The notes under the pieces are model-generated. The model made no database searches, was not told the origin of the DNA, and saw only the letters and a list, made by a program, of their open reading frames with translations. Below are positions 9,427 through 23,126 of a stretch of 25,054 nucleotides of DNA, one piece after another. Position 1 is the stretch's first letter. Every line of letters starts with the position of its first letter. The position numbers and the translations under genes were made by a program. Origin of the DNA: a virus; IMG/VR virus record IMGVR_UViG_3300006334_000060, positions 1 to 25,054 of that record; one strand, given 5' to 3'.

Positions 9427-9450
9427 CTTTATTCCCAAATCACTTATAAT
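9423..9450 (+). promoter_or_regulatory. Sigma70-type promoter with perfect -10
   Basis: TTGACT (9423-9428, 5 of 6) is followed by a 16-base spacer and TATAAT (9445-9450, 6 of 6). It is the best sigma70-type match seen in the window. Its -35 overlaps the stop codon of the preceding gene, and its last -10 base is the first base of a perfect late promoter. Confidence 0.75.
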
Positions 9451-9457
9451 ATAAATA
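9450..9457 (+). promoter_or_regulatory. T4-type late promoter TATAAATA
   Basis: An exact match to the T4 late promoter consensus, recognised in T4 by gp55-bound host polymerase with gp33 and the gp45 clamp. Initiation would fall near 9463-9465, about 22 bases before the ATG at 9486, with GGAG (9474-9477) as ribosome site. A TATAAATT at 9462-9469 lies just downstream. It overlaps the sigma70-type promoter, so the following operon could be read both early and late. Confidence 0.8.
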
Positions 9458-9485
9458 GAGGTATAAATTATATGGAGTGATTGAA

Positions 9486-10586
9486 ATGAAAGGTTTTACT
9501 AATTTCGTATCTGAAGCATACGATATTATTCCCAAGTCTGAGGGAGAAATTGACGAATTAGACATTCCTCATGATAAGGAAAAACTAAAAGCGTTATTCA
9601 CCGATGTTGTGACACAAACTGGTGTTGCAGACCCCATTGCCATATCTAAAAGTACCAATGAAAAAGGTATAAAAATCATGCGTTCAGTCGCAGATGACTT
9701 AGACCTTGCAAAACTCTCTGGAACATATGGTTTCAAAGTTTCTGCTGGTAATGGTTCAAGGGGCGGCACTGGAACTAAATCTATGGGATTTGGTTTTGAA
9801 GGACAAGTTTTCAAAGACCTCAATACCTATATTGAAGAAGGTGTTGATTCACCAAACTTCAAGTATCCAGACTTCATGAAAGACTTTCACTCACAGGTGT
9901 TATCAAAACATTCTGAAATCACTGTAAGTTTAGATGGTGGTGCGAATACTCGTAGACCACTTGTGTTTACAGATATTGGCGCTCTCATCAAAGGTAGAGA
10001 ACTCAACATTGGTCAGTATGTAACAGATATTACTGTAAACGGTGATGGTAATCCATATTACCTCTCACTGAAATACGGTAGCACTGTTACATTTTTCAAT
10101 GCTGGTGTCGCAACTATTTTTACAGAAGACCAGTTTAAAGCAGGAAAAATCACAAACAGAAATGCAAAACAACTTCTTGGTATGCTTGGTATTGATGAAA
10201 AAAGATTCATCGAAACCTTTGAAGGATACGATAAAAAGACTGCAAGTAGAAGAGCTCCAAAAGATGTTGTAGATGTAACCAGAAAAGTAAACATGAGAGC
10301 ATTGTTACAGTTGTTAGTAACTGGTGTTGGTATGGGTTATTGGATGGTACACAAAAAGGGTAAGGGTGTTGAACTCTATGAGATGAATCGTAGAAAGATG
10401 ATGGATGCTGCAAAAGTAAGTAGTGTCAAGGTTCAATATCCAAAGAAGGGAACTGCAAAGAGAATTGATATCGAAGTGGTGACCAAAATGTATATTTTCA
10501 AAATCAACATTCGTAACAAACAGGGTGGATTGTATCCGTCACATATTATGTGTGATTACAAACCAAATCCAGCATATGCAAAATGA
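9486..10586 (+). CDS. Hypothetical protein with capsid-targeting-like leader, possibly nuclease-like
   Basis: A 366-residue protein. ATG 9486 follows GGAG by 8 bases. Residues 1-11, MKGFTNFVSEA, line up position by position with the T4 internal-protein capsid-targeting leader MKTYQEFIAE followed by Ala; V-S-E would be a gp21-type cleavage site. The rest is not recognised with confidence. Residues 98-113 (KSMGFGFEGQVFKDLN), Asp181 in DITVNGDG and Ser194-x-Lys196 in YYLSLKYG could be an E...D...(S)xK nuclease core, which is a weak hint only. The C-terminal half holds KQLLGMLGIDEKRF and VNMRALLQLLVTG. It is the first gene of the late operon and overlaps the next by 4 bases (ATGA). Confidence 0.88.
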   Translation: MKGFTNFVSEAYDIIPKSEGEIDELDIPHDKEKLKALFTDVVTQTGVADPIAISKSTNEKGIKIMRSVADDLDLAKLSGTYGFKVSAGNGSRGGTGTKSMGFGFEGQVFKDLNTYIEEGVDSPNFKYPDFMKDFHSQVLSKHSEITVSLDGGANTRRPLVFTDIGALIKGRELNIGQYVTDITVNGDGNPYYLSLKYGSTVTFFNAGVATIFTEDQFKAGKITNRNAKQLLGMLGIDEKRFIETFEGYDKKTASRRAPKDVVDVTRKVNMRALLQLLVTGVGMGYWMVHKKGKGVELYEMNRRKMMDAAKVSSVKVQYPKKGTAKRIDIEVVTKMYIFKINIRNKQGGLYPSHIMCDYKPNPAYAK

Positions 10587-11815
10587 TTAGTTTGATGGAA
10601 AATAAGGCAGGAAAGAATCTGCACCTAGAACATATCGAAGATGAGATACTTAACTTTGGTGTGCCTGGTGGTCGTGCTGCAATCAACTTCATGCGTTCAC
10701 TAAGAGATATGTTCTCTGGTGCAAGTCGTAGTTCAGTAAACATGACTGTGAAGTGGGATGGCGCTCCTGCAATATTTGCTGGTATTGACCCAGAAGATAA
10801 TACGTTTTTTGTTGCAAAGAAATCTGTGTTTAACGTAGAACCAAAACTCTACAAGACGGAGGCAGAAATAGATGATGATTTATCTGGAACACTTAATTCT
10901 AAATTTAAAATCGCACTTGCAGAATTTTCTAAGTTGGGTATCACAGGGGTACTACAAGGTGACCTCATGTTTACAGACGATGTTGAAAAAACAACCATTG
11001 ACGGCACAAAGTATTATACTTTTCAGCCTAATACTATTGTATATGCTGTTCCACAAGATAGTGGTCTTGGTAAAGTAATCAACAGTGCAAAGATTGGTGT
11101 CGTATGGCACACAACATATACTGGTTCTGCACTGCAAGATATGAAAGCATCATTCGGTGCAAACATCAGTAAACTGAAAAAGACATCCACAGTATGGATG
11201 GATGATGCAACATACAAAGATGCATCTGGTACTGCAACATTTACATCAACTGAAAATGCAGAAGTAACTGGTCACTTGTCAAATGCTGGTAAATCATTCC
11301 ATCAAATTAACTCTGCAAAACTATCTAAGTTCCTTAGATTACAGAACTCACTGACAGGTAAACTGGTTGGTGCATCACTCAAGACATATAACAACTCAAA
11401 GGTTCGTAAGGGTGAAGCAATCAAGAACCCAAAACAACACGCTGCTGGATATATTACTTGGGTTGAAAATCATTTTGCAAAAGAGGTTGACAAGGTAAAA
11501 ACTGAGAAAAGTAAAGATGTTCTAAGAACAAAAGGTAGAGAATACGCAAGAGAATTTAAGAAAGATTTAACAAACTTAGAAGCGGTTATTGCGTTCCAAT
11601 CACATTTGGTAAATGCAAAGATGGGGATTGTAAAAAAACTAAATAGTGTTAAAGGTTTAACTGATACTTTTATTAAGACTAGTAATGGATTTAAAGTGAC
11701 AAACCCAGAGGGTTATGTTGCAATTGACAGAGTATCAGGCGATGCAGTAAAACTTGTTGACAGAATGGAATTTAGTTTTAATAACTTTACTGCAATAAAG
11801 GCATGGGATAAATGA
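10583..11815 (+). CDS. Conserved marine-phage protein with ligase-like (nucleotidyltransferase) motifs
   Basis: A 410-residue protein starting in an ATGA overlap (ATG 10595 is an alternative). It resembles a family common in T4-like marine phages and usually left unnamed. Motifs in ligase order can be read: motif I KWDG (Lys57-Gly60, in VKWDGAPAIF), a DGEL-like QGDLMF (125-130), a motif IIIa-like FQPNTIVYAV (147-156), motif IV-like PEGYVAID (375-382) and motif V-like AVKLVD (388-393). KxDG with a later EGxV and KL is the signature of covalent nucleotidyltransferases (DNA and RNA ligases, capping enzymes). The I-to-IV distance is longer than usual, so an insert (about 180-350) is needed. Function is inferred, not known. 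No targeting leader is seen here, unlike its neighbours. Confidence 0.9.
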   Translation: MISLMENKAGKNLHLEHIEDEILNFGVPGGRAAINFMRSLRDMFSGASRSSVNMTVKWDGAPAIFAGIDPEDNTFFVAKKSVFNVEPKLYKTEAEIDDDLSGTLNSKFKIALAEFSKLGITGVLQGDLMFTDDVEKTTIDGTKYYTFQPNTIVYAVPQDSGLGKVINSAKIGVVWHTTYTGSALQDMKASFGANISKLKKTSTVWMDDATYKDASGTATFTSTENAEVTGHLSNAGKSFHQINSAKLSKFLRLQNSLTGKLVGASLKTYNNSKVRKGEAIKNPKQHAAGYITWVENHFAKEVDKVKTEKSKDVLRTKGREYAREFKKDLTNLEAVIAFQSHLVNAKMGIVKKLNSVKGLTDTFIKTSNGFKVTNPEGYVAIDRVSGDAVKLVDRMEFSFNNFTAIKAWDK

Positions 11816-12228
11816 GAACTTTTAAAGAATTATTTGAAGACGAAATAGACGAAAAACAAACGCCTGCTCAAATTATGCAGAATCGCAGAAAAATGAGTAG
11901 ACGTATGAAAATTCTTGCGAAGAAATCATCCACTAAGATGAAGAAGAAGAGAGCAAGAGTAAGACGCCGTGACCCAGATGCGTTACAGGCGATTGCAAAA
12001 CGTCAAGCAAAAATGATGGTTATCAAACGTAGTTTAGGCCCAGAGGTCAACTACAAAGAACTCCCCATGCAAAAACGTATTCAGATTGACCAGAAGATTG
12101 TTGCCAAAAAACGTAAAGTGATTGACAAGATATCACAGAAGATTCTTAGGAAACTAAAAGCTGGTGAGGGTGAAAGAATTAAAAAGAATAAGGCTGCAAT
12201 GGCAGGCATGGACGCAGTGGGAGATTGA
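11812..12228 (+). CDS. Highly basic protein with acidic capsid-targeting-like leader
   Basis: A 138-residue protein coupled by ATGA overlap to the previous gene. Residues 1-14, MRTFKELFEDEIDE, are acidic after the MRTFKE start and end in I-D-E, a gp21-type (L/I)-x-E site. Everything after it is strongly basic: NRRKMSRRMKILAKK, TKMKKKRARVRRR, then long Lys-rich helices. The pattern of a removable acidic leader on a basic body is that of T4 internal head proteins, which are packaged with DNA. I infer a DNA-binding internal capsid protein. No enzyme motif is present. A ribosomal-protein-like look is due to composition only. Confidence 0.86.
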   Translation: MRTFKELFEDEIDEKQTPAQIMQNRRKMSRRMKILAKKSSTKMKKKRARVRRRDPDALQAIAKRQAKMMVIKRSLGPEVNYKELPMQKRIQIDQKIVAKKRKVIDKISQKILRKLKAGEGERIKKNKAAMAGMDAVGD

Positions 12229-12229
12229 T

Positions 12230-14953
12230 ATGAAAACTTTTAAAGAAGCAAGAGGCGATACCGCTGTATTCACATTTGGTAGATTTAATCCGCCCACAAC
12301 TGGTCACGAAAAACTTATAGACGCACTTGGTAGAGAGCAGGGTAAGAACCCAGGCGCTCCTATGTATGTGTATCCATCTCATTCCCAGAACCCAAAGAAA
12401 GACCCACTTCCTCATGGAAGAAAAGTCGCATACATGAAGAAGATGTTTCCAAAGTACAAAAGAAACATTACAGTCAGTCGTGCAAGAAATGTGTTCGATA
12501 TCGCAGTTGAACTGCATAACAAAGGTCACAAGGCAATTGTCATGGTTGTTGGTTCAGATAGGGTGGATGAATTTGCAAACCTATTAGACAAGTATAATGG
12601 TGTAGAGGGTAGACACGGTTTCTATGGATTCGATGATATTAAGGTAGTATCTGCTGGAGAACGTGACCCAGACGCAGAGGGTGTAACAGGAATGTCTGCA
12701 TCTAAAATGCGTGCCGCTGCAACTGCAAATGACCTTGACCAGTTTAAACTTGGTCTTCCAAAAGGATTTGCAGATGGAGAAAAACTGTTTAATGATGTTC
12801 GTAAGTTTATGGGCGTTAAAGAAGAATTCAATCTTACAATGGAAGAACTAAATCGTGACCTTTATATTCGTGGAGAGATTTGGAATGTCGGTGATGTTGT
12901 AAAAACAACAGATGGTGATGAGGGTACAATCATTCGCAAAGGCACAAACTATGTTGTGTTTGAGGACTTGAGAAGAGTGTGGTTGCATAATCTTGAAGAG
13001 GTTAGAAAAACAAAACAAGATAAAGATGTTGAGGACAGAGAAGGTACACAACCAGCAAAGTATTATGCAAAAGGTGCTGGTGGCAAAACTATGAAAAAGT
13101 CTACCAAGCAATCTAGGGCAAGACACTTTGAAAAAGGTGCGAAGATGGATGATGATAATCCTGCCGCATATAAACCAGCGCCTGGCGATAAAGGTGCAAA
13201 AACCAAACTGTCCAAGTACACCAAAAAATATAGACAGATGTATGGTGAGACTGAGGAAAGTCTTTGGGCAAACATTCATAAGAAGAGAGAAAGAATCAAA
13301 AGGGGTTCTGGTGAGAAGATGAGAAAAGTTGGTGACAAAGGCGCTCCAACACCAGACCAGATGAAACGTGCAAAGGGTGAGTCTGTCACAGAAGAAATGA
13401 AGTGTCCGCCTGCAACCCAAGACGTAAAGATTAATACGACAAACAGAGATGCAACAATCAAGAACTTCAACTATGGGCCACTGAATGTTGACGAACCAGG
13501 CGATTACTGGAAAGATATTGCAAAGTACTGGAAGACAACTGAAGAGGCAGCAAAGAAGTCAGTATGTAACAATTGTGTTGCGTTTGATGTATCACCAAGA
13601 ATGTTAGAGTGTATGCCAGGCGAAACATCTGATGATGATGGTCGTTTGGGATATTGTTGGATGCACCACTTCAAGTGTCACTCTGCAAGAGCGTGTCACA
13701 CTTGGGCAAAGGGTGGGCCAATCACTGAAGATGAAAAATCATATGATTGGCAAAAACGTGCAAAGATGGATGAGAGAAAACTGACAGATGCAGAAAAGAA
13801 GAAATTAGTAAGTTTAGAAAAAGATGTGTCAAAGAAAGACTTTATTGACAGATACGGTAAAGAAGAAGGTGAATCAATCTATTATGCAACTTTGACAAAA
13901 ATGGCAAAGAAACACGCAGAAGAGATACACGAAATGTCAATAGGTAAAATAATTCGTGATAAGATTTACAATATGACACATCCAAAAAAGATGGATAATC
14001 TTGTAAAAGCGTATGCAGATGCAGTTGCATCAGATACCAAGGGAAGACATGGAAACAGTTATCATGCTGGTGAGGTAGTCAGAAGACATGGTGCTGAAAG
14101 ACAAGGTGTTGACGTAAGACAACTTATGGGTTATATAAACTCACTTGTTAAGAAAGGTGACATACCAGCATCATTGAAAGCACAGGATGAGATTGATGAA
14201 GAATTCTTGGATGAAAAGATTGCTGGTCTTGTAAAGAAGTCAGATAAGTCTGGTGTACCATATGGTATTCTTAAAAAGGTTTACGATAGAGGTATGGCGG
14301 CATGGAGAACTGGACACAGGCCAGGCACCACACCACAGCAGTGGGCCTTTGCCAGAGTCAATTCATTCTTGACAGGTGGTGGTGCAAGAAAGTCTGATGC
14401 AGACTTGTGGTCAAAAGCAAAAGGTGCAAAGAAGAAAAAGAAAGAGTCTTATGAGATTGGTAAAGATTACGGTGACCACGCTCGTAAGATAACGCCTGGA
14501 CAACAAGTAACTAAAGAGTCAATAGAAGAATGGTATCTTAGTGAGAGTGTAAGAGATAAATATGAACAGAGATATGGTGACGAGTGGTTAAGTAAATTAA
14601 CCAAAACCTACCATGCAATGCTAGAAAAGGTTGAACCCTGTTGTGACGATTGTGCAGAACAATTTGACCATATCGTAGAGGATGCAGAGTATCAAGGTAG
14701 AAAAGTAAAACTGAATGACCCCATTCGCACAAGCGAAAACCCTAACAAGAAGTTTAAGGTTTATGTGAAGAATGAAAAGGGAAAGGTCGTAGTGGTTCGT
14801 TTCGGTGACCCAAATATGGCAATCAATCGTGATGACCCAGAAAGAAGAAAGTCATTTCGTGCGAGACACAACTGCGATGACCCAGGCCCGAAAACGAAGG
14901 CAAGATATTGGAGTTGTTTCCAATGGCGTGCTGGTGCAAAAGTCGATAACTAA
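12230..14953 (+). CDS. 907-residue polyprotein: nucleotidyltransferase plus several marine-phage virion modules
   Basis: ATG 12230 (GGGAG at 12219-12223) gives MKTFKEARGD, the leader-like start; an upstream in-frame ATG at 12164 lies inside the preceding gene. Modules in order: a cytidylyltransferase/NMN-adenylyltransferase-like domain (11-190) with FGRFNPPTTGH (T/HxGH at 23-26) and GMSASKMR (154-161, the ISSTxxR position); a KOW/SH3-like segment (214-257); a basic KSTKQSRARHF...APGDKGAKTKLSKYTKKYRQMYGE module (273-339); a Cys/His-rich probable zinc domain (Cys446, 449, 460, 476, 483, 489); an RYGKEEGESIYYATLTKMAKK module (541-561); a GVPYGILKKVYDRG module (675-735); and a C-terminal YQGRKVKLND...FRARHNCDDPGP module (820-907). 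ITE, IHE, LDE, LSE and IVE tripeptides sit near module borders. Inference: packaged and cleaved by prohead protease. Confidence 0.92.
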   Translation: MKTFKEARGDTAVFTFGRFNPPTTGHEKLIDALGREQGKNPGAPMYVYPSHSQNPKKDPLPHGRKVAYMKKMFPKYKRNITVSRARNVFDIAVELHNKGHKAIVMVVGSDRVDEFANLLDKYNGVEGRHGFYGFDDIKVVSAGERDPDAEGVTGMSASKMRAAATANDLDQFKLGLPKGFADGEKLFNDVRKFMGVKEEFNLTMEELNRDLYIRGEIWNVGDVVKTTDGDEGTIIRKGTNYVVFEDLRRVWLHNLEEVRKTKQDKDVEDREGTQPAKYYAKGAGGKTMKKSTKQSRARHFEKGAKMDDDNPAAYKPAPGDKGAKTKLSKYTKKYRQMYGETEESLWANIHKKRERIKRGSGEKMRKVGDKGAPTPDQMKRAKGESVTEEMKCPPATQDVKINTTNRDATIKNFNYGPLNVDEPGDYWKDIAKYWKTTEEAAKKSVCNNCVAFDVSPRMLECMPGETSDDDGRLGYCWMHHFKCHSARACHTWAKGGPITEDEKSYDWQKRAKMDERKLTDAEKKKLVSLEKDVSKKDFIDRYGKEEGESIYYATLTKMAKKHAEEIHEMSIGKIIRDKIYNMTHPKKMDNLVKAYADAVASDTKGRHGNSYHAGEVVRRHGAERQGVDVRQLMGYINSLVKKGDIPASLKAQDEIDEEFLDEKIAGLVKKSDKSGVPYGILKKVYDRGMAAWRTGHRPGTTPQQWAFARVNSFLTGGGARKSDADLWSKAKGAKKKKKESYEIGKDYGDHARKITPGQQVTKESIEEWYLSESVRDKYEQRYGDEWLSKLTKTYHAMLEKVEPCCDDCAEQFDHIVEDAEYQGRKVKLNDPIRTSENPNKKFKVYVKNEKGKVVVVRFGDPNMAINRDDPERRKSFRARHNCDDPGPKTKARYWSCFQWRAGAKVDN

Positions 14954-14965
14954 AGGAAGATAAAA

Positions 14966-16423
14966 ATGAGATATGGAAAAAGCATGAGTGAAGCCCTTGC
15001 AGAAATTCGTGAGGGGTTCTCCAAAAAAGAAATCAAGATGGCAATCGGTGTTGCATCTGACCCACGTTATAAACAGGGTAATTACTCTGGTGCGGTAAGA
15101 GCAATCGAAAAAATTAAAAAGGGATTGTCAACACACCCACAGGTTGCTGCTGTTCTAAAAAGACAGAACGAGGAGATATTTGAAAAAGTCAAGTGTCCAG
15201 AATGTAATGGCGAAGGTTGTGACCATTGTGAGGGAAGAGGATATCATACCGAAGCACTTGACAAAGAGGATGAACCTTTTGTAAAGGACTTGATTAAAAA
15301 ACTAAGAAAAGGTTCTGCAACTCACGGTAAACAGGCAGATGACTTGGAGAAGGCAGTCAAGGAAGAAACTGAACTTGATGAAGTGAAGACTACTCATGTA
15401 GTTATTGATACTGCTGATGGTGACAAGGTTGTCGGTACTGCATCTTCTGAAAAGGTTGCAAAGGAAATTATCACAACTGCACAACTTCCACCTATTAAAA
15501 TCAAAGATAAGAAGACTTTGAAGGTTGTTATGATGAAGAAACCTGTCAGTGATAAGAAGGCATCACAGATGATTGGTTATCCTTTGAAAGAGGAAGTTGA
15601 ACTTGATGAGAGTGTCAAGGCATCAACTGCTTATGACTTTGACCGATTAATTAAAGATGGTGGGCTTGATAAAAGAGATTTCCAAAAGGCAAAAAACTTA
15701 TACACCCAGAATAAGTTGATGGATTTAAGAAAATTTATCTATAACTTAGATACCTCTCCACTAGAAGCAATCATGGATGTCATTGCAAAAAATGACCCAA
15801 AGGCATTTATGAAGATGTATCCAAAATCCAAGAAGGGTGAGTATATGTCTAGTATCGCTTACGCACACAAAGAAGAAGTTGAACTTGATGAAAGAAAGTT
15901 TGAAGCTGGTAAGTCTGCTTCTGGTTACGATATATTCCACAAAGACTTTTCATCTGCAATGCAACACGCAACTGCATTTGCAAAGAAAAAAGGACAACCA
16001 ATTAAGAAAGATGAGATTGATAATAAAGTTGCAACAGGCCCAAGAAAACCAAGCCCAGGCAAAGAAAACTCATACACTCTTGAAACCGAAAAAGGTAAGA
16101 GGTGGTCAGTTCAAGTGTATAACATGGGTAGTAAATTTGAACTGAATATGTACTTAACATCATCTCATGTGCCTGAAGGTGATACGCTTGATGAAGCAAA
16201 AGAAGTTTTGTCAAGATTTAAAGATGATAAACTTAAAAAGAGTATCATGAATCTTGCAACACAAAAAGGACTAAAGGTTAAGGAAATGGGAGACAAACTT
16301 GAAGTCTCTGGTAATGCCAGAAAGGTTATGGACTTAACCCTTGCAGTTCAAAAACATGATGTAAAAGTTGAACATAACATGATGTCAGCGTATACTGCTG
16401 CTATAACTAAAGGAGTAAAATAA
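14966..16423 (+). CDS. 485-residue polyprotein with repeated ELDE linkers and a zinc motif
   Basis: ATG 14966 follows AAGGA (14953-14957). Residues 1-17 (MRYGKSMSEALAEIREG) contain I-R-E, a possible leader cut. A helical module follows (FSKKEIKMAIGVASDPRYK...), then a DnaJ-like zinc motif CPECNGEGCDHCEGRG (77-92). From there the protein is a string of small alpha/beta modules separated by near-identical acidic linkers: KEETELDE (132-139), KEEVELDE (208-215), KEEVELDE (302-309) and EGDTLDE (404-410). Each ends L-D-E, matching the gp21 (L/I)-x-E rule. Modules between linkers are about 70-100 residues and unrelated by eye (THVVIDTADGDKVVG; AYDFDRLIKDGGLDKRDF; SGYDIFHKDFSSAMQHA; a final KH-like alpha/beta module with RFKDDKLKKSIMNLA). 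I recognise no enzyme. Inference: internal capsid polyprotein. The next ATG overlaps its stop by one base. Confidence 0.92.
   Translation: MRYGKSMSEALAEIREGFSKKEIKMAIGVASDPRYKQGNYSGAVRAIEKIKKGLSTHPQVAAVLKRQNEEIFEKVKCPECNGEGCDHCEGRGYHTEALDKEDEPFVKDLIKKLRKGSATHGKQADDLEKAVKEETELDEVKTTHVVIDTADGDKVVGTASSEKVAKEIITTAQLPPIKIKDKKTLKVVMMKKPVSDKKASQMIGYPLKEEVELDESVKASTAYDFDRLIKDGGLDKRDFQKAKNLYTQNKLMDLRKFIYNLDTSPLEAIMDVIAKNDPKAFMKMYPKSKKGEYMSSIAYAHKEEVELDERKFEAGKSASGYDIFHKDFSSAMQHATAFAKKKGQPIKKDEIDNKVATGPRKPSPGKENSYTLETEKGKRWSVQVYNMGSKFELNMYLTSSHVPEGDTLDEAKEVLSRFKDDKLKKSIMNLATQKGLKVKEMGDKLEVSGNARKVMDLTLAVQKHDVKVEHNMMSAYTAAITKGVK
15365..15891 (+). repeat. Dispersed in-frame linker repeat encoding E-(V/T)-ELDE
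   Basis: The 17-mer GAAGTTGAACTTGATGA occurs exactly at 15593-15609 and 15875-15891, and with two changes at 15365-15381 (GAAACTGAACTTGATGA). All copies are in the same reading frame. Weaker relatives are CTTGATGAAG near 16189 and AAACTTGATGAGAA near 16658 in the next gene. The spacings are 228 and 282 bases, multiples of three. Identity at the DNA level as well as protein suggests recent duplication or linker shuffling rather than convergence. Confidence 0.8.
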
Positions 16424-17280
16424 TGTCAAAATATTTTGATACAAAACCTGGCAGTCTTGAAGAAGCCGTATCCGCTGCTCAACAGGCTGCAATTGCTATC
16501 TCCAAAAAGGAGAGAGGTGAGAAACCAAAAGATAAAAAAGATGAAGGTAATGCATTTGGTGCTGCCTTAATGGCGGCAAAGGAAAAGGGTGAAAAAACCT
16601 TTACTGTTGCTGGTAAAAAATATGATGTAAAGACTGAACAAGAAATCAAGGAAGAAAAACTTGATGAGAAGGTTGAGTATGTTGAGTACAAATTCAAAAA
16701 CAAGAATGATGCAATGGCAGCAAAGAAGATGCTTGATGCAGTTCAGTTAATGAGTTTCGATATCAACGATGACAACATCTCTGGTGGTGAACTCATGGTT
16801 GATGCTGGTTCAAAGGATATGACCAAGTATCATAAAGAAATCATGAAGAAGTTTAAACCAAAGGTAATGAAAACTGAAACCAACAAGAACGACAAGTCTG
16901 ATGACGGTGACGGTCTTGATGCGGTTCAACCAGACGCTGTTAAGAAGAAGTTCAAAGACCGTAAGGACAAGGACATTGATAACGATGGTGACGTAGATGA
17001 TTCAGATAAGTTCTTGCACAAAAGACGTAAGGCAATCTCAAAGTCAATGGGTGAGTCACTTATGTCTGTTGCAGATTCCGTTAGACAAATGTGGGATGAA
17101 GCTGCAAAGAAATCTGAGTCTCAAGATGTGTTGAATGATAAAGATGGTGATGGTATGGATGATGACCAGAAACCAGAAAAAGCGAAAGCAAAGAAAATGA
17201 CTGATACTGGTAAACCAGTAACACCGATTGAGACATCACCAAAGATGCCTAAAACAAAAAATGAGAAGAACAAAGTCTAG
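16423..17280 (+). CDS. 285-residue acidic/basic protein with EF-hand-like loops and LDE linker
   Basis: The ATG overlaps the previous stop by one base, with AAAGGAG at 16409-16415. The start MSKYFDTKPGSLEEAVSAAQ contains L-E-E (12-14), a possible leader cut. KEEKLDEKVEY (77-87) repeats the linker of the previous polyprotein. A small alpha/beta module follows (VEYVEYKFKNKNDAMAAKKML...MTKYHKEIM). The C-terminal half is low-complexity and charged, with two calcium-loop-like stretches: DIDNDGDVDDSD (184-195, full DxDxDG pattern) and DKDGDGMDDDQ (239-249). Such loops are seen in EF-hand and dockerin-like proteins; calcium binding is inferred only. Likely a virion or prohead protein of the same class as its neighbours. 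The last base of the stop is the first base of the next GTG start. Confidence 0.88.
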   Translation: MSKYFDTKPGSLEEAVSAAQQAAIAISKKERGEKPKDKKDEGNAFGAALMAAKEKGEKTFTVAGKKYDVKTEQEIKEEKLDEKVEYVEYKFKNKNDAMAAKKMLDAVQLMSFDINDDNISGGELMVDAGSKDMTKYHKEIMKKFKPKVMKTETNKNDKSDDGDGLDAVQPDAVKKKFKDRKDKDIDNDGDVDDSDKFLHKRRKAISKSMGESLMSVADSVRQMWDEAAKKSESQDVLNDKDGDGMDDDQKPEKAKAKKMTDTGKPVTPIETSPKMPKTKNEKNKV

Positions 17281-17807
17281 TGATACGGTTTGATGAAGTA
17301 TATAATTTGGTGGCAGAGGAGAACGAAGAACTTCCAACCATCTATTGCGATATGGATATGGTGCTCTGTAACTTCTTGAAAGGTGCAGAGGAAGTTCTTG
17401 GTGTTCCCTTTCCAAGAGCGGATAAAAGGGAGAAGTGGATAAAGATTTCCTCTACCAAAGACTTTTGGGTAAACCTTGAATGGATGATGGGTGCCCAAAG
17501 AATGTGGTCATTTATAAACAAGTATGATGCACACATTCTATCTGCATACTCAACCAAAGACCCAAACAGTCGTAAGGGAAAACTTGCATGGTTGAAGAAG
17601 AATGCGAAACTTACAAAAAAGTCTCGTATTCACTTAGTATTGAGGGCAGACAAACAAAAATTTGCAATGATAAACAACAAACCAAACCTGTTGATTGATG
17701 ATTATATTAAGAACATTCACGAATGGGAAGCAAAGGGTGGAGTTGGAATACATCATACAGACCCAACTACAACTCTCGCAGAATTGAAACGGTTAGGTTT
17801 TAAATAA
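17280..17807 (+). CDS. HAD-family 5'(3')-deoxyribonucleotidase-like protein
   Basis: A 175-residue protein starting with GTG 17280 in a TAGTG overlap. HAD motifs are present in order: motif I YCDMDMVLCNF (Asp24, Asp26), motif II-like LSAYSTKD (87-94), a motif III Lys around 125-127 (ADKQKF) and motif IV LLIDDYIKN (137-145, Asp140/141). The size and the DxDxV start fit the NT5C/deoxyribonucleotidase group, which dephosphorylates nucleoside monophosphates. The 20 residues before motif I, MIRFDEVYNLVAEENEE, are an extension resembling the leaders of upstream proteins (LVAE then E), so this enzyme might also be packaged. An alternative is an ordinary late nucleotide-scavenging enzyme. Confidence 0.88.
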   Translation: MIRFDEVYNLVAEENEELPTIYCDMDMVLCNFLKGAEEVLGVPFPRADKREKWIKISSTKDFWVNLEWMMGAQRMWSFINKYDAHILSAYSTKDPNSRKGKLAWLKKNAKLTKKSRIHLVLRADKQKFAMINNKPNLLIDDYIKNIHEWEAKGGVGIHHTDPTTTLAELKRLGFK

Positions 17808-17808
17808 C

Positions 17809-17816
17809 ATAAATAG
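17809..17816 (+). promoter_or_regulatory. T4-type late promoter, CATAAATA
   Basis: Seven of eight matches to TATAAATA, in the 46-base gap before a virion gene. Expected initiation near 17823 leaves a short leader with AGGAG (17841-17845) and ATG at 17854. The following bases GATGAG resemble the GAGG that follows the 9450 site only loosely. Confidence 0.7.
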
Positions 17817-17853
17817 ATGAGTATATATACTATCTAACTTAGGAGAAATTAAA

Positions 17854-19161
17854 ATGAGCTCATGGAGTATGAATGATGGTTCTGCACTGACAGGTACTAT
17901 GACATTCACCAATGGAAATGCCGCTGTTTCTGGTTCTGGTACGAACTTTGACCCAGAAGTAAAAGTGGGTGACATCATCATTTCCGCTGGTGGGGTCAAA
18001 CATAGAGTAAAAGCTGTTACGTCAGATACCGCACTAACACTAACTGAAAATTTCAGTGGTTCAACCGAAAATGGTGTTGCCGCCACGGTTACAAGACCAC
18101 CACTGAATTTTGCATCTGCAGCACCGCATATTGATAACAATGTGTTGGGTATCACCTCTGGTGAATCTTTGGGTGGTGTAGACAACATTACAAGTATCGG
18201 TGTCGGTAACACAACACTAGGTACTTACGAAAGAATTGGTGGTAACACATACCACACTTCAGCACCGACAGTAACAATTGCTGCACCAACAGCAAGAACA
18301 ATTACTCAAGCGAACATCAATGAAACAACAGATGTGTTTACTGTAACTGGTCATAATATGAGAACTGGTACAAAGTTAACTTATACATCAAATGGAACAA
18401 ATATTGTTCATAGTGGTGGAACTCTTGCAGATAGCACAGCAGTTTTTGTTATTAGAGTTGATGATAATACTTTTAAAATCGCATCTTCACTTTCAAATGC
18501 AAATGCTGGTACTGCATTAGACATTACAAATGATGGTAATGATAGTAACTCATTTGTAGGTGATACTGCAGCAGCAACTGCAACCATCTCTGGTGGTAAA
18601 GTAACTGGTTTCACAATCACTAACGTGGGTTCTGACTATCAGTCTGCACCTTCAGTTACAATTGCTGCCCCAAGTGGTACTGGAAATTTGAACTTAACAG
18701 ACAACACAGTATTAATTGTTGCTGATGATGAAATCGTTGTTCCTGCCGCATTCTATGCTGCTATCTCAACTGGTGAATCAGTGACATATGCACAAGGTGG
18801 TTCTGGTGCTCAAGCAGACCTTACAGATGGAACTGTCTACTACCTAATCAAATCTGGAACTGCAAACAAGATTAGTCTTGCAACAAGTGCCGCAAATGCA
18901 CTTGCTGGAACAAAGATTGACTTAACTGCTGTTGCATCTGGTGGTACTGCACACTCATTTGTTGGTGGAACTGCAACCGCAACCGCAACTCTTGGTCTTG
19001 GTGTAGACGGTGACGATAACAGAAGAGATATCGCACACGTTGGTTGGGTCAAGAAGACTGTAGGTACTGGTGGTCGTGCTGGTAGAATTCACTACGAAAC
19101 TCTAGTTGCCGCATCAAGTATGTCTGGTGATGCAGAGGATATCGCAACCCCAGACAGTTAA
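17854..19161 (+). CDS. Virion structural protein with internal repeats
   Basis: A 435-residue, Thr/Ser/Gly/Ala-rich, beta-strand protein with no Cys. Strong AGGAG and a late promoter precede it. Residues 1-130 start with an oligomeric-looking beta domain (GTMTFTNGNAAVSGSGTNF, VGDIIISAGG, HRVKAVTSDTALTLT). Two related modules follow at about 133-245 and 262-380. Each opens YxSAPxVTIAAP and ends (A/N)AGTxxDxT...(H/N)SFVGxTAxATAT. The C-terminal 40 residues (RRDIAHVGWVKKTVGTGGR) look like a conserved terminal element. This composition is typical of marine T4-like phage decoration or fibre-associated proteins detected in virions. The exact location in the particle is unknown. Confidence 0.9.
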   Translation: MSSWSMNDGSALTGTMTFTNGNAAVSGSGTNFDPEVKVGDIIISAGGVKHRVKAVTSDTALTLTENFSGSTENGVAATVTRPPLNFASAAPHIDNNVLGITSGESLGGVDNITSIGVGNTTLGTYERIGGNTYHTSAPTVTIAAPTARTITQANINETTDVFTVTGHNMRTGTKLTYTSNGTNIVHSGGTLADSTAVFVIRVDDNTFKIASSLSNANAGTALDITNDGNDSNSFVGDTAAATATISGGKVTGFTITNVGSDYQSAPSVTIAAPSGTGNLNLTDNTVLIVADDEIVVPAAFYAAISTGESVTYAQGGSGAQADLTDGTVYYLIKSGTANKISLATSAANALAGTKIDLTAVASGGTAHSFVGGTATATATLGLGVDGDDNRRDIAHVGWVKKTVGTGGRAGRIHYETLVAASSMSGDAEDIATPDS

Positions 19162-19179
19162 TATATAATGGAGTAGATT

Positions 19180-19440
19180 ATGGCAGGTCAATTGACTGAG
19201 ACTGAGATTAATATTAGGAAACAAACACTAAGTGCAGAACTTGAAAAACAAAAGTCTGCACTTAGTAAACTAGAAGAACAAAGAACGAATATCACTGCAC
19301 AGATGTACGCCACAACTGGTGCAATCCAACAGTGTGATTTGTTCTTACAACAACTAAATGGTGGTAACGAAAATGTTACCAGTAGCATTCCATCAGAACC
19401 AGAAGATGGTTCAAACAATATCGTTACGGCGATGAGTTGA
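19180..19440 (+). CDS. Small coiled-coil protein
   Basis: An 86-residue protein with GGAG at 19170-19173 and ATG 19180. Residues 3-62 are helical with heptad-like hydrophobic spacing (LSAELEKQKSALSKLEEQR), followed by a Gly/Asn/Ser-rich tail (NGGNENVTSSIPSE). No motif for a known enzyme. Small coiled-coil proteins of this kind often sit beside structural genes in marine T4-like phages, so a chaperone or minor virion role is possible but not shown. Confidence 0.85.
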   Translation: MAGQLTETEINIRKQTLSAELEKQKSALSKLEEQRTNITAQMYATTGAIQQCDLFLQQLNGGNENVTSSIPSEPEDGSNNIVTAMS

Positions 19441-19460
19441 TGGTTTACAGGAGATAAAAA

Positions 19461-20225
19461 ATGGCTGATAAGAAAATTACTGCGTTGACAGACTTGGGTA
19501 ATGCGATTGCATCTGAAGATTTGCTTCATGTGATTGATGACCCATCTGGCACACCAGTTAACAAAAAGATTACTGTTGCAAATGTATTCAATAACATTCC
19601 AACATACATTGCACTAGACGGTACTGCACAATCCATTACAGGAAGTGTTGCAGTAAACACAACCACTTCAATTACATTACTTGACCTAAGTTCTGCAAGT
19701 AACAACACCACTGCAACTGGTGCTTTAGGTGCTGGTACAAATGGACAAGTGAAGGTCGTTATTATGTCAACTGACCCAAGTGCTGGTTCATCATACAAAC
19801 TAACACCAGCAGCAAGAAACGGTTACGATTCAATCTCTTTCCAAGATGAAGGTGATACTGCAATCCTCATGTTCTCAAATAATAAATGGAACATCGTTTC
19901 AATGCATGGTGCAGTAGAAACTACACAGACTATTACTGCAACTGGTAGTGTAGATTTGACATCAAGTCTTACACTTCTTGATACAACCTCTGGTGCTCAA
20001 ACACTTTCACTTGCAACTGGTAAATTTATTGGTCAAATGAAAACTATTGTTATGAAAACAAAAGGTGGTTCAAACAATGCAACTATGACAACTGCTGGTG
20101 GTAACTTACTTGCTGGTCAAGTATCTACATCAATTGTATGGAATAGTGAAGGTGATGCAGTTACACTAATGTACAATGGTACAAAGTGGGTGGTAACCAG
20201 TAACTTTGGTGCAACGATATCATAA
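19461..20225 (+). CDS. Virion structural protein, duplicated beta domain
   Basis: A 254-residue protein starting [15 protein letters not shown], a common N-terminal module of marine phage structural proteins ([26 protein letters not shown]). AGGAG (19449-19453) is 7 bases before the ATG. Two similar beta domains follow: about 62-155 ([15 protein letters not shown]... [18 protein letters not shown]) and about 162-250 ([13 protein letters not shown]... [18 protein letters not shown]). The conserved pairs SITLLD/SLTLLD and [25 protein letters not shown] show an internal duplication. It is likely a tail-fibre, neck or decoration protein; position in the particle is unknown. Confidence 0.88.
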
Positions 20226-20235
20226 GGAGTAAACT

Positions 20236-20415
20236 ATGGAAGTAGTAAGATATGGTGCTGGTGGAATGCCAATTGTCTCTAAAGAAGAGAAAAAGGTAGA
20301 ACCAGTAGAAAAGGTCGAAAAGACAAAAAAGAAATCAGAACCACTTCAAGAGATTCTTGAAGTCAATCCAAATGAAGATGATGGTTTTGATGAGGAACAT
20401 GGAGAAGATGAATGA
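20236..20415 (+). CDS. Short charged hypothetical protein (59 residues)
   Basis: A small gene with AAGGAG (20224-20229) 6 bases before ATG 20236, ending in an ATGA overlap with the next gene. The product starts MEVVRYGAGGMPIVSKEEKK, continues as a Lys/Glu/Val-rich linker, and ends strongly acidic (NEDDGFDEEHGEDE). Good ribosome site and coupling at both ends make it real despite its size. It is probably unfolded or an extended tail. No function recognised. Confidence 0.8.
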   Translation: MEVVRYGAGGMPIVSKEEKKVEPVEKVEKTKKKSEPLQEILEVNPNEDDGFDEEHGEDE

Positions 20416-20819
20416 AAACCTTTAAACAATATATGAAGGAAGCTCCTCATCCAGCAGACGGTGACAATCCTGTTGATGGTGACATGATGTTGGGTGACCT
20501 TACCAGTGATGCAGTAGTCGAAAGATTGAATGCATATGTTGGTGCGATTGCAGATAGAGAATATCTCAATCCAGAAAAAGCAGTTGCTGAGATGAGACAG
20601 AAACTTATGAGAGTTGGTATTCATTTTGGTGATGTTCAATTTACTGAGGAAAGTGGTGAGATTTCTGTTCCTCTAGTTCAGTATGGTGGCGCATTTGGTA
20701 AAAGTGGAGACACACCATATGATGAGTTTGATAACGAAGTCGAGAGTGGTCGTTCATTGAACTTTGTATATGAGAGAACAGGTGGGGGTACGCATAGAAT
20801 TCTAGCAAAGATTATGTAG
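20412..20819 (+). CDS. Conserved-looking protein with capsid-targeting-like leader
   Basis: A 135-residue protein beginning MKTFKQYMKEAPHP. The first 11 residues align with the T4 leader MKTYQEFIAE plus Ala, with M-K-E at the cleavage position (less ideal than L/I-x-E). A helical stretch (SDAVVERLNAYVGAIAD, PEKAVAEMRQKLMRVGI) is followed by strands (VQFTEESGEISVPLVQYGG) and an ending NFVYERTGGGTHRILAKIM. No enzyme motif seen. Coupled by ATGA to the 59-residue gene. Inference: late protein, possibly internal to the capsid. Confidence 0.85.
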   Translation: MKTFKQYMKEAPHPADGDNPVDGDMMLGDLTSDAVVERLNAYVGAIADREYLNPEKAVAEMRQKLMRVGIHFGDVQFTEESGEISVPLVQYGGAFGKSGDTPYDEFDNEVESGRSLNFVYERTGGGTHRILAKIM

Positions 20820-20820
20820 T

Positions 20821-21183
20821 ATGTTTGAGAAAATAACCAATGAGAATGTGATGTTATTTGCACTGAAACATTACGACAATCCACAGTGCGAAGGCGAGAA
20901 AGAATTTCATGATGATATGAAGAGGTTCAAGTATATAAAGAGATTACTCAAGAAATATACAGACCACGGAGTATTAAAGGAACGGTTATTACTTAATCAC
21001 ATAATCGTATTGAATAATGTGTTTGGGCCTGAGGCATCAACGACACTTATGTTGTTCAAGATAGAACCAAAGTATTGGCCCCAACTAAAGTCGTTTATGA
21101 ATTTCTTGGGAATATTGCCTGAGAAAGAATTACCAGAGGTACACGAAGATTTATTTGTGTCTGGTGCGTTAAGGAAACTATAA
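20821..21183 (+). CDS. Conserved-looking hypothetical protein, helical
   Basis: A 120-residue mostly helical protein starting one base after the previous stop. Segments are MFEKITNENVMLFALKHYDN, an EFHDDMKRFKYIKRLLKKY helix, LLLNHIIVLNNVFGPEASTT and LKSFMNFLGILPEKELPEV. I recall similar small proteins in T4-like marine phage late operons but know no function. No signal peptide, metal site or transmembrane segment. Its stop overlaps the next ATG by one base (TAATG), so translation is coupled. Confidence 0.85.
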   Translation: MFEKITNENVMLFALKHYDNPQCEGEKEFHDDMKRFKYIKRLLKKYTDHGVLKERLLLNHIIVLNNVFGPEASTTLMLFKIEPKYWPQLKSFMNFLGILPEKELPEVHEDLFVSGALRKL

Positions 21184-21821
21184 TGGGTAGAGCGATAGAT
21201 TTATTTGTAACGTACAGGTTTATTAAGTTACTAGTCACACCTTTTGAAAAACAGGAGGCGTATAAACTTGGTATCATAGATAAAGACGGTAATCGTATTA
21301 CTGAACCTGGCACAAATAAACCCACCACACTTAGACTTGGTAAAGAGAAGGATGCATACACAGTTCTTCACAAGTTGGTTTTCAATATCAAAAAGTTGTT
21401 TGCAAAGGTGCCTGGATTGCGTACTAAAGTTGGTACATATGCATCTGCACTGTTTCTGTTAAAGGATACATTTAAAGAACACGTTGATGACCCACAGGTA
21501 TTTGAAAAAGAATTCCTCAAGTATCTAAAAGAAAATGGATATGAACTTGATGATACTATTGCAGAAGAGGTAACACTTGAGGATGGTAAGTTACCAAAAG
21601 GTATATATAAATTAACACAGGATATCGCATTTGATGAAGAGGATGCTGATACACCAGATGCATTAGAGGGTGATGAGATTCAAGTATTTGAAGCAATCGC
21701 ACCAACTGATACTATCTTAGGAGTGGATGTATTCCCTGTAATTCATGTGCCAACACAGAGTAAAATCTTTGTCAGTGCAGAGGATATTAAAGAAGTAGGA
21801 ATCGAGGATTTAGAACTATGA
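21183..21821 (+). CDS. Conserved-looking hypothetical protein, probably virion-associated
   Basis: A 212-residue protein starting MGRAIDLFVTYRFIKLLVTPF, an amphipathic N-terminal helix. A helical middle (RLGKEKDAYTVLHKLVFNIKKLFAK, VGTYASALFLLKDTF) is followed by an acidic linker (DDTIAEEVTLEDGKLPKG) and a strand-rich end (QVFEAIAPTDTILGVDVFPVIHV, KIFVSAEDIKEVG). I recognise no catalytic motif. It sits among late genes, coupled at both ends by 1- and 4-base overlaps. Confidence 0.86.
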   Translation: MGRAIDLFVTYRFIKLLVTPFEKQEAYKLGIIDKDGNRITEPGTNKPTTLRLGKEKDAYTVLHKLVFNIKKLFAKVPGLRTKVGTYASALFLLKDTFKEHVDDPQVFEKEFLKYLKENGYELDDTIAEEVTLEDGKLPKGIYKLTQDIAFDEEDADTPDALEGDEIQVFEAIAPTDTILGVDVFPVIHVPTQSKIFVSAEDIKEVGIEDLEL

Positions 21822-22327
21822 GTTTAAAATTTCAAGACATCATGAAGAATTTCTACAACGATGAAACATTGGGTATTAAGAACGAAGATGCCCCTGCAAA
21901 TGCGACAGGCCCTGCTGTTGCTGGTACTGGTGATGATAGTTCAGTTGTTGTAGTCAAAAAGAAAAAGAAAAATATGTACGATGGTCGTACTAGAGAAGCA
22001 AGAGCATTTATGAAAAGAATGGAAACGCTTCGTGCAAAGAGAGAATCTAAACTTGCAAAGACAGTAAAGGAAAGAACTGAGGACTTTGGAGTTGAGTATC
22101 TTCTTGCAGAGGATAATGTTGCAATCTTACAGAACATCGTTAAAAGAAAACAAAATAACAAAATCAAAATGAAGGACGGTACAATGCGTATTGACCTTTT
22201 CACTGCGTCTGCACTGACACAGGCACTAGACCAAGTTAAACCAGACACCAAAAAGAAGATGATGGATATCATCAATAATGGTGGTAAAGCACAACTAATG
22301 AAACTTGTTAGTGTGGTAATGAAGTGA
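21818..22327 (+). CDS. Hypothetical protein with basic linker
   Basis: A 169-residue protein starting in an ATGA overlap. The N-terminus MSLKFQDIMKNFYNDETLG is followed by an Ala/Gly-rich disordered stretch, VVVVKKKKKN, a basic helix (TREARAFMKRMETLRAKRESK) and an alpha-helical end (RIDLFTASALTQALDQVKPD, KMMDIINNGGKAQLMKLVSVVMK). The start loosely resembles the leaders of neighbouring genes but lacks the MKTFK form. No function recognised; the basic, low-complexity front half suggests interaction with DNA or protein in the virion. Confidence 0.85.
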   Translation: MSLKFQDIMKNFYNDETLGIKNEDAPANATGPAVAGTGDDSSVVVVKKKKKNMYDGRTREARAFMKRMETLRAKRESKLAKTVKERTEDFGVEYLLAEDNVAILQNIVKRKQNNKIKMKDGTMRIDLFTASALTQALDQVKPDTKKKMMDIINNGGKAQLMKLVSVVMK

Positions 22328-22331
22328 TGTC

Positions 22332-23126
22332 ATGCGTTCTTTTAAAGAAGTTGCATACAATTTTGAAAAACCAATAGCAGACCTTAATGCTAATTCGATG
22401 GGGCCTGGTCTTGATACCATGCGTCCTATCATTAATCTTACCGCTAGTAAAGAAATCACGAAATCAGACCTAGACCAACTTGAACGGTATGCAGATAAAC
22501 TGTTTGCCGCAGTTGGTATTGATGTTGAGTTCACTCGACATTTTCTTGATAGGGTAAATGATGAACGTAATAAGAAACAGATAACAACTGCTGAGTTGAC
22601 AAGATTATTCAAACAATCTTTTAAGAAGTACGGCAAAAAGATTGCACAACTTGGGCCCGATGCCGAAGCTGTGATTAACGATATGAAAACAGATGTGAAT
22701 ATGCCGTTCGCACTAAACCTCAAGGGTGGTGAGTTAGAACTTGTTGCGAAAACAATTATGAGAAAGAAAGACTTTAAAACTCGTAATACAAAACTCGCAT
22801 TTGAACAATACAGAATGTTAGAGGCACCAAGGATACCAAGAAAGAAAGGACAACCTGCTGGTTCTGATAAACACTCTGATTTGTACACAGATGAAAACCC
22901 AAAAGGCACAATACATGGTCTTAAATTTGCAACGGTAGAAGATGCGAAAGCAAGTGTTGCAAAGATTGAAAAGTCTGGAAAGACACACGCACACAAGATA
23001 CAGGCAGCGATTGCAATGGAGCAACGTGCTAGGGTCATGGGTAAAACTGGGCCCGCAGACGTATATCGTGCATATATAAACAAGATGAAAGAAAAGACTA
23101 AACAAAGGAGAAAAAAAGATGATTGA
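22332..23126 (+). CDS. Two-module protein with MRSFKE leader-like start
   Basis: A 264-residue protein starting MRSFKEVAYNFEKPI. The first module (about 55-160) holds FTRHFLDRVNDERNKKQIT, a KKYGKKIAQL helix and ELELVAKTIMRKKDF. This loosely recalls the RelE/DUF4258 class (conserved H..DRV..R then a late strand with K and R), a weak guess. After a linker containing RMLEAPRIPRKKG, the second module (DKHSDLYTDENPKGTIHGLKF...AKASVAKIEKSGKTHAHKIQAA then AMEQRARVMG) is of a type that recurs in marine phage virion proteins. The basic C-terminus (TKQRRKKDD) overlaps the candidate holin gene. Function is unknown. Confidence 0.87.
   Translation: MRSFKEVAYNFEKPIADLNANSMGPGLDTMRPIINLTASKEITKSDLDQLERYADKLFAAVGIDVEFTRHFLDRVNDERNKKQITTAELTRLFKQSFKKYGKKIAQLGPDAEAVINDMKTDVNMPFALNLKGGELELVAKTIMRKKDFKTRNTKLAFEQYRMLEAPRIPRKKGQPAGSDKHSDLYTDENPKGTIHGLKFATVEDAKASVAKIEKSGKTHAHKIQAAIAMEQRARVMGKTGPADVYRAYINKMKEKTKQRRKKDD

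Follow-up and report, generated by a model that had tools for sequence, protein, structure and literature searches.

The targeting sequence of bacteriophage T4 relies on its positions 4 and 7 for targeting and on positions 8 and 10 for processing, gp21 of T4 cuts after L/I-x-E, and leaders of this kind have been described, in general terms, as a possible means by which T4-like phages package various proteins (PMC9026906). Starts of this type were found to recur on unrelated proteins encoded in a viral sequence of 25,054 nucleotides (IMG/VR record IMGVR_UViG_3300006334_000060, positions 1 to 25,054), the whole of which is called the window here. The window carries the end of a DNA polymerase gene, a UvsX-like recombinase and a DnaB-like helicase, followed by a cluster of candidate cargo genes at 9.4-23.1 kb, downstream of which lies a gene with a match to a family of tail assembly chaperones. 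It is part of a marine T4-type phage, a relative of the Kyanoviridae. The leaders are, with high probability in our judgement, T4-type capsid-targeting sequences plus prohead-protease sites on a cargo set.

As in T4 IPI, IPII and IPIII, an N-terminal M-K-x-[FY]-x-x-F and a hydrophobic-x-E junction precede unrelated mature proteins. The window differs from T4 in having enzymes and long polyproteins in place of small internal proteins, in the varying length and junction of its leaders, and in a possible second leader type, MTRYxKTM. Substrates of gp21-type proteases (in T4 and in the jumbo phages phiKZ and SPN3US) are cut after Glu at a short motif, whereas candidate sites here also lie at the joints of shuffled modules. 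Polyvalent proteins (Iyer et al. 2017, PMC5512222) are many-domain phage proteins that were predicted to be packaged and injected and were likened by their authors to polyproteins; several domains per chain, in varying order, were found here as well. Their release was ascribed to embedded peptidase domains, whereas a separate head protease is proposed here, and when ten proteins of the window were scanned against Pfam and PHROGs, no peptidase family was found. Among the matches listed for the open-licence literature, in the portions accessible, there was no description of leaders of this type in marine T4-type phages and none of modular, protease-released head cargo in tailed phages.

Under the proposed mechanism, aromatic residue 4 and hydrophobic residue 7 would bind a cargo protein to the scaffold core during prohead formation, and the gp21-type protease of the phage would then cut after the Glu of hydrophobic-x-Glu, so that mature cargo is released within the head. 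Because the large cluster proteins have the same type of site between domains, each of their chains, once in the prohead, would yield several small cargo proteins. Along with the DNA, the host would receive a cargo composed of a HinP1I-like nuclease, a DUF6267 protein with a ligase-like motif, an NMNAT-like nucleotidyltransferase, a deoxyribonucleotidase and small modules; our guess is that this set acts on nucleic acid and NAD metabolism during the first minute after infection. The case for capsid targeting is strong on comparative grounds and in one of the two proteomes that were tested whole; cleavage and delivery are predicted, as is the polyprotein mechanism.

Recurrent leaders and conserved junctions

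An earlier note on this DNA had described a recurrent leader on unrelated late proteins, and that description held. Six N-termini were confirmed in the sequence, with ATG at 9486, 11812, 12230, 20412 and 22332 and GTG at 17280 (genes are named here by their first position), and scans against Pfam and PHROGs gave the leader-bearing proteins no family in common except phrog_455 and phrog_23027, which are large profiles matched in different parts. Two of the frames extend upstream of the ATG, that of 9486 to GTG at 9477 and that of 12230 to GTG at 12164; homologues favour the ATG starts. The common start has the form M-[KR]-x-F-x-x-hydrophobic, occurs on unrelated proteins downstream of the helicase, and leads up to a hydrophobic-x-Glu junction that immediately precedes the conserved core. 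Aromatic residue 4 is combined with hydrophobic residue 7 in five of the six leaders (9486, F4 and F7; 11812, F4 and L7; 20412, F4 and Y7; 22332, F4 and V7; 17280, F4 and V7, which fits the pattern loosely); 12230 has F4 but carries Ala as residue 7 and ends in a shortened FKE|A. The weaker members are 12230, 22332 and 17280. Strict L/I-x-E was present only at the leader ends of 11812 (LFE) and 10583 (LME); the others end in VSE (9486), MKE (20412), FKE (12230) and VAE (17280), with none at 22332.

Four patterns (A-D) were tried together, including pattern B, M[KR][TS][FY], and the seven-residue pattern D, M[KRQ].[FY]..[FYLIMVH]; all were fixed before the roles of T4 positions 4, 7, 8 and 10 were taken from the literature. 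The test set consisted of 32 window proteins, hand-picked from 113 listed open reading frames, together with 219 proteins of Methylophilales phage Melnitz and 196 of Pelagibacter phage HTVC008M, two complete isolates filed under Kyanoviridae whose clusters are colinear with that of the window; genes cut at sequence-piece edges were left out. A motif search of related phages for enrichment over chance had been proposed in the earlier note, and in Melnitz and HTVC008M it bore out the expectation, with pattern D at 5/22 and 3/19 in the cluster vs 1/197 and 1/177 elsewhere (window, 4/20 vs 0/12). The corresponding counts for the window, Melnitz and HTVC008M were 3/20 vs 0/12, 3/22 vs 1/197 and 4/19 vs 3/177 for pattern A, 4/20 vs 0/12, 1/22 vs 1/197 and 3/19 vs 0/177 for pattern B, and 5/20 vs 0/12, 5/22 vs 2/197 and 2/19 vs 3/177 for pattern C. 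Within the window alone, no pattern differed significantly between cluster and remainder (Fisher 0.08 to 0.23). Internal methionines (n=2210) gave 16, 3, 22 and 12 matches to A, B, C and D, respectively. The leader-type start is thus rare outside the cluster in two complete related genomes, and the lone Melnitz pattern D match outside its cluster (L083:15855) is related to a gene that HTVC008M has within its cluster. In a T4 control (67 proteins, one 50-kb stretch), pattern D matched IPI, IPII, IPIII and one other protein.

Relatives were collected by locus searches with the DUF6267 protein and with the 12230 protein, using the best 80 of at least 598 loci each, and further loci were added. 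Their leaders vary, mostly ending in hydrophobic-x-Glu right before the core (MKTFSELLTE|DKGGKN, MIKFSNFLTE|DKAGKN, MKNFKELLE|ARGDTA, MKTFKQYMKE|A). Within -10..+3 of the junction, [LIVMFY]xE was present in 245/259 distinct regions from six families, even where the leader was swapped (12/12, 88/89, 40/48, 68/69, 23/24 for the HAD family of 17280, and 14/17), compared with 6 to 40% of windows further down the same proteins, depending on family; the 22332 family (6 homologues) was left out of this count. Pattern D starts were frequent among the distinct N-termini of three families (11812, 28/48; 12230, 39/61; 20412, 12/16). In the 9486, DUF6267 and HAD families the conserved part is, as judged from sequence, the junction and not the leader. 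The 9486 family kept a Glu-[Ala/Ser]-Tyr junction in 13/13 distinct N-termini despite frequent leader replacement, some leaders being the short MKGFTNFVSE|A and others unrelated, 20 to 30 residues long and ending, for example, in QFSE|A; Glu10 was invariant in 11 aligned sequences (9 of these begin only where the match begins). Alignment with T4 places the capsid-protein maturation site at FLTE|A in T4 itself, where gp23 is cut, at FLSE|A in Melnitz and at FLGE|I in HTVC008M. The Melnitz relative of 9486 starts MQGFKTFLSE|A and has the tetrapeptide FLSE in common with the Melnitz capsid-protein site.

That the common start is a translation feature, a favourable start context with no bearing on packaging, is very improbable and was set aside. 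MK starts are common in these genomes, and many leaders follow a Shine-Dalgarno-like stretch, though the choice of start itself used that stretch; however, the pattern is concentrated in one cluster and coupled to a conserved Glu junction, a leader-like string without Met stands inside one polyprotein chain (L039, below), and the pattern marks virion proteins of cyanophage S-CREM2.

Upstream of 9486, TATAAATA, which we take to be the T4 late promoter core, occurs as the one copy in the window, where 1.33 would be expected by chance over its whole length. Of 14 distinct stretches of up to 220 bases upstream of 9486 orthologues, 12 contained it vs 0.023 expected per 220 bases, several of the phages counted being close relatives.

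The leaders of the zeta-toxin-like kinases of Melnitz (L083:15855-16523) and HTVC008M (L087:6562-7224) differ, and the mature parts behind them begin alike, with G[VL]YDP; the Melnitz gene sits away from the cluster. A RimK-like ATP-grasp protein of Melnitz (L082:82-1131), encoded far outside the cluster, has the leader-like start MTQKFSQFITEE.

Module chains and the linkers between them

The earlier note left out the second half of the pattern, namely similar sites between the modules of the 12230, 14966, 16423 and 22332 proteins. All four are chains of small modules, which in the 12230 protein accompany a cytidylyltransferase family (NMNAT-like) in Pfam and PHROGs. Using 24 seed modules, at least two modules were found in 248 proteins from the fetched loci, Melnitz and HTVC008M, in 79 orders. 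Some contigs were present under more than one locus number, and the module counts were repeated without near-duplicates, giving 117 proteins and 72 module orders, with some proteins cut at contig ends. The motif [LI]xE occurred in 219/288 distinct inter-module gaps (76%) vs 287/4942 same-length windows inside modules (5.8%), and in 182/235 gaps of the nonredundant set. With a slightly different filter, the loose form [LIVMFY]xE occurred in 273/286 gaps vs 18% of inside windows and the strict form [LI][DNSTQE]E in 106/286 (37%) vs 0.9%. The 14966 protein has four copies of E..[LI]DE vs 0.08 expected, a number reached in 0/500 shuffles, and the 16423 protein has one vs 0.05 expected. Among 41 nonredundant proteins with at least two linkers, 159/681 alignment starts and 211/746 alignment ends fell within 8 residues of a linker (counts not independent), compared with about 9% of random positions and at most 13% in 200 draws.

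It is possible, if somewhat doubtful, that the leaders target and are cut, and that the acidic inter-module linkers are flexible hinges that are never cut. The linkers are Glu/Lys-rich, and a motif-free junction test was mixed, with KxE first, ExE third, MxE fifth, LxE only seventh and IxE eleventh of 400, a ranking that tells against cutting at the joints. Against the hinge reading stand the excess of [LI]xE, and of its strict form, in gaps over module interiors and the leader-like strings at internal joints: at the place of EQYRMLE (Table 1), the relative L039 has KLSFEQFIKE, without Met, closing the module before DUF6267, and L115 has MKSFKDYISE at an internal joint, possibly as a separate start. 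If the linkers are cut as well, the heads of these phages would hold a modular, protease-released arsenal. We consider it about evenly balanced whether marine T4-type phages make such modular polyprotein head cargo, with one leader and protease sites between shuffled modules, cut into many injected effectors; a phage could then re-equip its first-minute arsenal by adding, dropping or rearranging modules between sites, without other change.

A second recurrent start, approximately M-x-[RK]-Y-x-K-[ST]-M (14966-15004; L082:17131, L087:9429, L051, L075, L039), was observed on polyproteins and some 21818-type proteins and may represent another leader class. Module J (L051, L055, L075, L076) contains a GHKDNNPMNN..NRREPR stretch, recurs between linkers and is HNH-nuclease-like by eye.

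Leader-bearing proteins in virions of relatives

Leader-bearing relatives of the cluster proteins have been detected in virions by others. The reports on virion enzymes of marine T4-type phages (nucleotidyltransferase, S-adenosylmethionine (SAM) hydrolase, kinase and a Cas9-annotated nuclease) allowed that these might represent carry-over. The virion proteome of S-CREM2 comprises 52 proteins (PMC10665884), and all 219 proteins of this phage were compared as 28 non-structural virion, 24 structural and 167 undetected proteins. Pattern D, fixed beforehand in the chance test, matched 4/28 non-structural virion proteins vs 0/24 structural and 0/167 undetected ones (Fisher 3.5e-4), the carriers being gp6 (SAM hydrolase), gp14 (kinase), gp136 and gp154 (cytidylyltransferase). 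A position matrix trained on leaders of T4, the window, Melnitz and HTVC008M, with S-CREM2 excluded, placed virion proteins at ranks 1, 2, 3 and 5 of 219. Virion protein gp12 (a Cas9-like nuclease by annotation, for which Pfam gave nothing at E 0.001 or below) has LRFASFMAE|A at residues 17-25, and gp13 has MKDLHSFLTE; with gp6 and gp14 they form a block of leader-bearing virion proteins (L089:3837-12846) that includes a SAM lyase match in Pfam (2e-19). Carried in the virion, an enzyme that destroys SAM could weaken restriction as soon as infection begins. Loose pattern E, run on part of the proteome, gave 7/15 vs 10/127, and pattern F, written after part of the proteome had been seen and not used as proof, gave 6/28 vs 1/167, with 1/24 structural. 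Among the other 22 non-structural virion proteins (all but gp6, gp12, gp13, gp14, gp136 and gp154), gp15 and gp155 have loosely similar starts and 20 have none by eye.

Nucleotidyltransferase relatives of 12230 were found in virions of three cyanophages, always with a leader: MKNFSSFLTE|A in S-CREM2, MKKFSAFLNE|A in S-SM1 and MKSFLQFLKE|A in S-SCSM1. The S-SM1 citidylyltransferase of cluster T4-GC190 was detected in virions (PMC3037559), and the start given here is that of gp190, labelled GC 190. The S-SCSM1 protein is NMNAT gp91, a named virion protein (PMC9602691) and the sole pattern D virion match of that phage; all five neighbours gp89 to gp93 are virion-flagged. Of the six leader families of the window, only the nucleotidyltransferase had a relative in the two virion proteomes searched (S-CREM2 and S-SCSM1). 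The leaderless DUF6267 relatives S-CREM2 gp87 and S-SCSM1 gp257 were not among the virion proteins listed, as expected if the leader decides packaging, non-detection being weak evidence. Module-level relatives of the polyproteins in the S-CREM2 virion were gp111 (8e-5, to 14966) and gp160 (1e-6, to Melnitz), and linker strings were present in virion proteins S-SCSM1 gp92 (KEEVELDE) and S-CREM2 gp160 (KEETEISE).

A tail or baseplate role, in which the leader would be a common assembly tag and the proteins would not be head cargo, is also most improbable and was likewise set aside. Two genes in or after the cluster (17854 and 24000) match tail families; against this, T4 internal head proteins carry the motif, the S-CREM2 structural proteins lack it, and several of the proteins match enzymes. 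T4-type head genes are present in related isolates, and a gp21-type prohead protease is annotated in Melnitz, HTVC008M, S-CREM2, S-SCSM1 and S-SM1.

Several results weigh against targeting and cleavage as proposed. No gp21-type protease gene was recognised in the window, which is without a head module, and the 22332 start has no Glu junction within its first ten residues. Pattern D starts were rare in three of the six families (9486, 1/13; DUF6267, 4/70; HAD, 0/18 distinct N-termini), for which our confidence was lowered slightly. In S-CREM2, pattern B had no match in any group (0/28, 0/167), and the shift in matrix score over the 28 non-structural virion proteins was not significant (p 0.063). 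S-SCSM1 as a whole was without pattern D enrichment (1/48 virion-flagged vs 5/231 others, p 0.68), using 279/282 proteins (gp61, gp134 and gp215, cut at sequence-piece edges, were left out) and the 48 virion flags of the record, where the paper counts 45 (PMC9602691). One of the five unflagged matches is gp30 (L195:24215-24535), a small protein with the textbook leader MKTFKQFMSE|S encoded between virion-flagged genes; the other four are, by eye, signal peptides, membrane starts or unrelated. Linker motifs were not enriched among virion proteins, as hinges would predict, either in S-CREM2 (1/52 vs 0/167 and 0/52 vs 1/167) or in S-SCSM1 (1/48 vs 1/231 and 3/48 vs 8/231). Carry-over was allowed for by the authors of both proteomes, and no cut N-terminus was seen.

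The earlier note had further proposed a packaged cargo set delivered through T4-type targeting. This stood in part: positions 4, 7, 8 and 10 are largely kept, the junction is conserved, and leader-bearing relatives occur in S-CREM2, S-SM1 and S-SCSM1 virions; packaging in this phage, leader removal and entry into the host are predicted. A leader that marks virion-associated enzymes would provide a testable rule for predicting injected proteins in abundant ocean phages.

Feature coordinates and structural models

Features of the cluster are listed in Table 1. Structural models of the DUF6267 and 9486 proteins were middling (mean predicted local distance difference test score, pLDDT, of 67 and 73), all VIA-align rows were under Z 8, and Foldseek gave no match with E up to 0.001 for either. 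The 9486 core resembled the restriction enzyme HinP1I with Z 7.7 (root-mean-square deviation 4.7, 191 aligned) and 7.0, followed by a next row of 4.3, a likeness below the level that the tool calls a safe match.

Table 1. Positions of leaders, cores, linkers and the late-promoter motif in the window
Feature	Position	Strand	Remark
TATAAATA, T4-type late promoter -10	9450..9457	+	28 bases before ATG at 9486
Leader MKGFTNFVSE, nuclease-like protein 9486-10586	9486..9515	+	putative cut before A; residues 1-11 pLDDT <50 in AlphaFold model, confidence rises after
Core of nuclease-like protein	9516..10586	+	phrog_8438
Short leader MISLME, DUF6267 protein	10583..10600	+	relatives have longer MKTFSELLTE or MIKFSNFLTE at same place
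DUF6267 core, K-W-D-G motif	10601..11815	+	Pfam 7.5e-104
Leader MRTFKELFE, basic protein 11812-12228	11812..11838	+	pattern D frequent in family
Short leader MKTFKE, nucleotidyltransferase polyprotein 12230-14953	12230..12247	+	pattern D frequent in family
Linker DEIDEEFLDE, 12230 protein	14186..14215	+	inter-module gap
EEWYLSE, 12230 protein	14525..14545	+	long inter-module gap; next residue S
Possible second leader type MRYGKSMSEALAE, polyprotein 14966-16423	14966..15004	+	similar MTRYxKTM starts in relatives, some 21818-type proteins
Linker EETELDE, 14966 protein	15362..15382	+	modules Zn_CxxC / E
Linker EEVELDE, 14966 protein	15590..15610	+	modules E / C
Linker EEVELDE, 14966 protein	15872..15892	+	modules C / B
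Linker EGDTLDE, 14966 protein	16175..16195	+	modules B / D2; next residue A
Linker KEEKLDE, protein 16423-17280	16648..16668	+	
Leader MIRFDEVYNLVAE, protein 17280-17807	17280..17318	+	before HAD deoxyribonucleotidase core; PHROG 7e-28
Leader MKTFKQYMKE, protein 20412-20819	20412..20441	+	pattern D frequent in family
Leader-like start MRSFKEVAYN	22332..22361	+	without Glu junction; relative L077 has MKTFRQHLLSE before same core
Junction EQYRMLE, internal in 22332 protein	22803..22823	+	modules T / M, leader-like; next residue A

A search with the DUF6267 profile against solved structures gave nothing up to E 1. The DUF6267 model aligned with RNA ligases (1xdn, Z 7.0, root-mean-square deviation 4.3, 169 aligned; T4 Rnl2, Z 6.6 and 6.5), in rows tied with unrelated ones and below an unrelated top row. 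KxDG is motif I of ligases, the KWDG motif is invariant in DUF6267, and the core is perhaps ligase-like.

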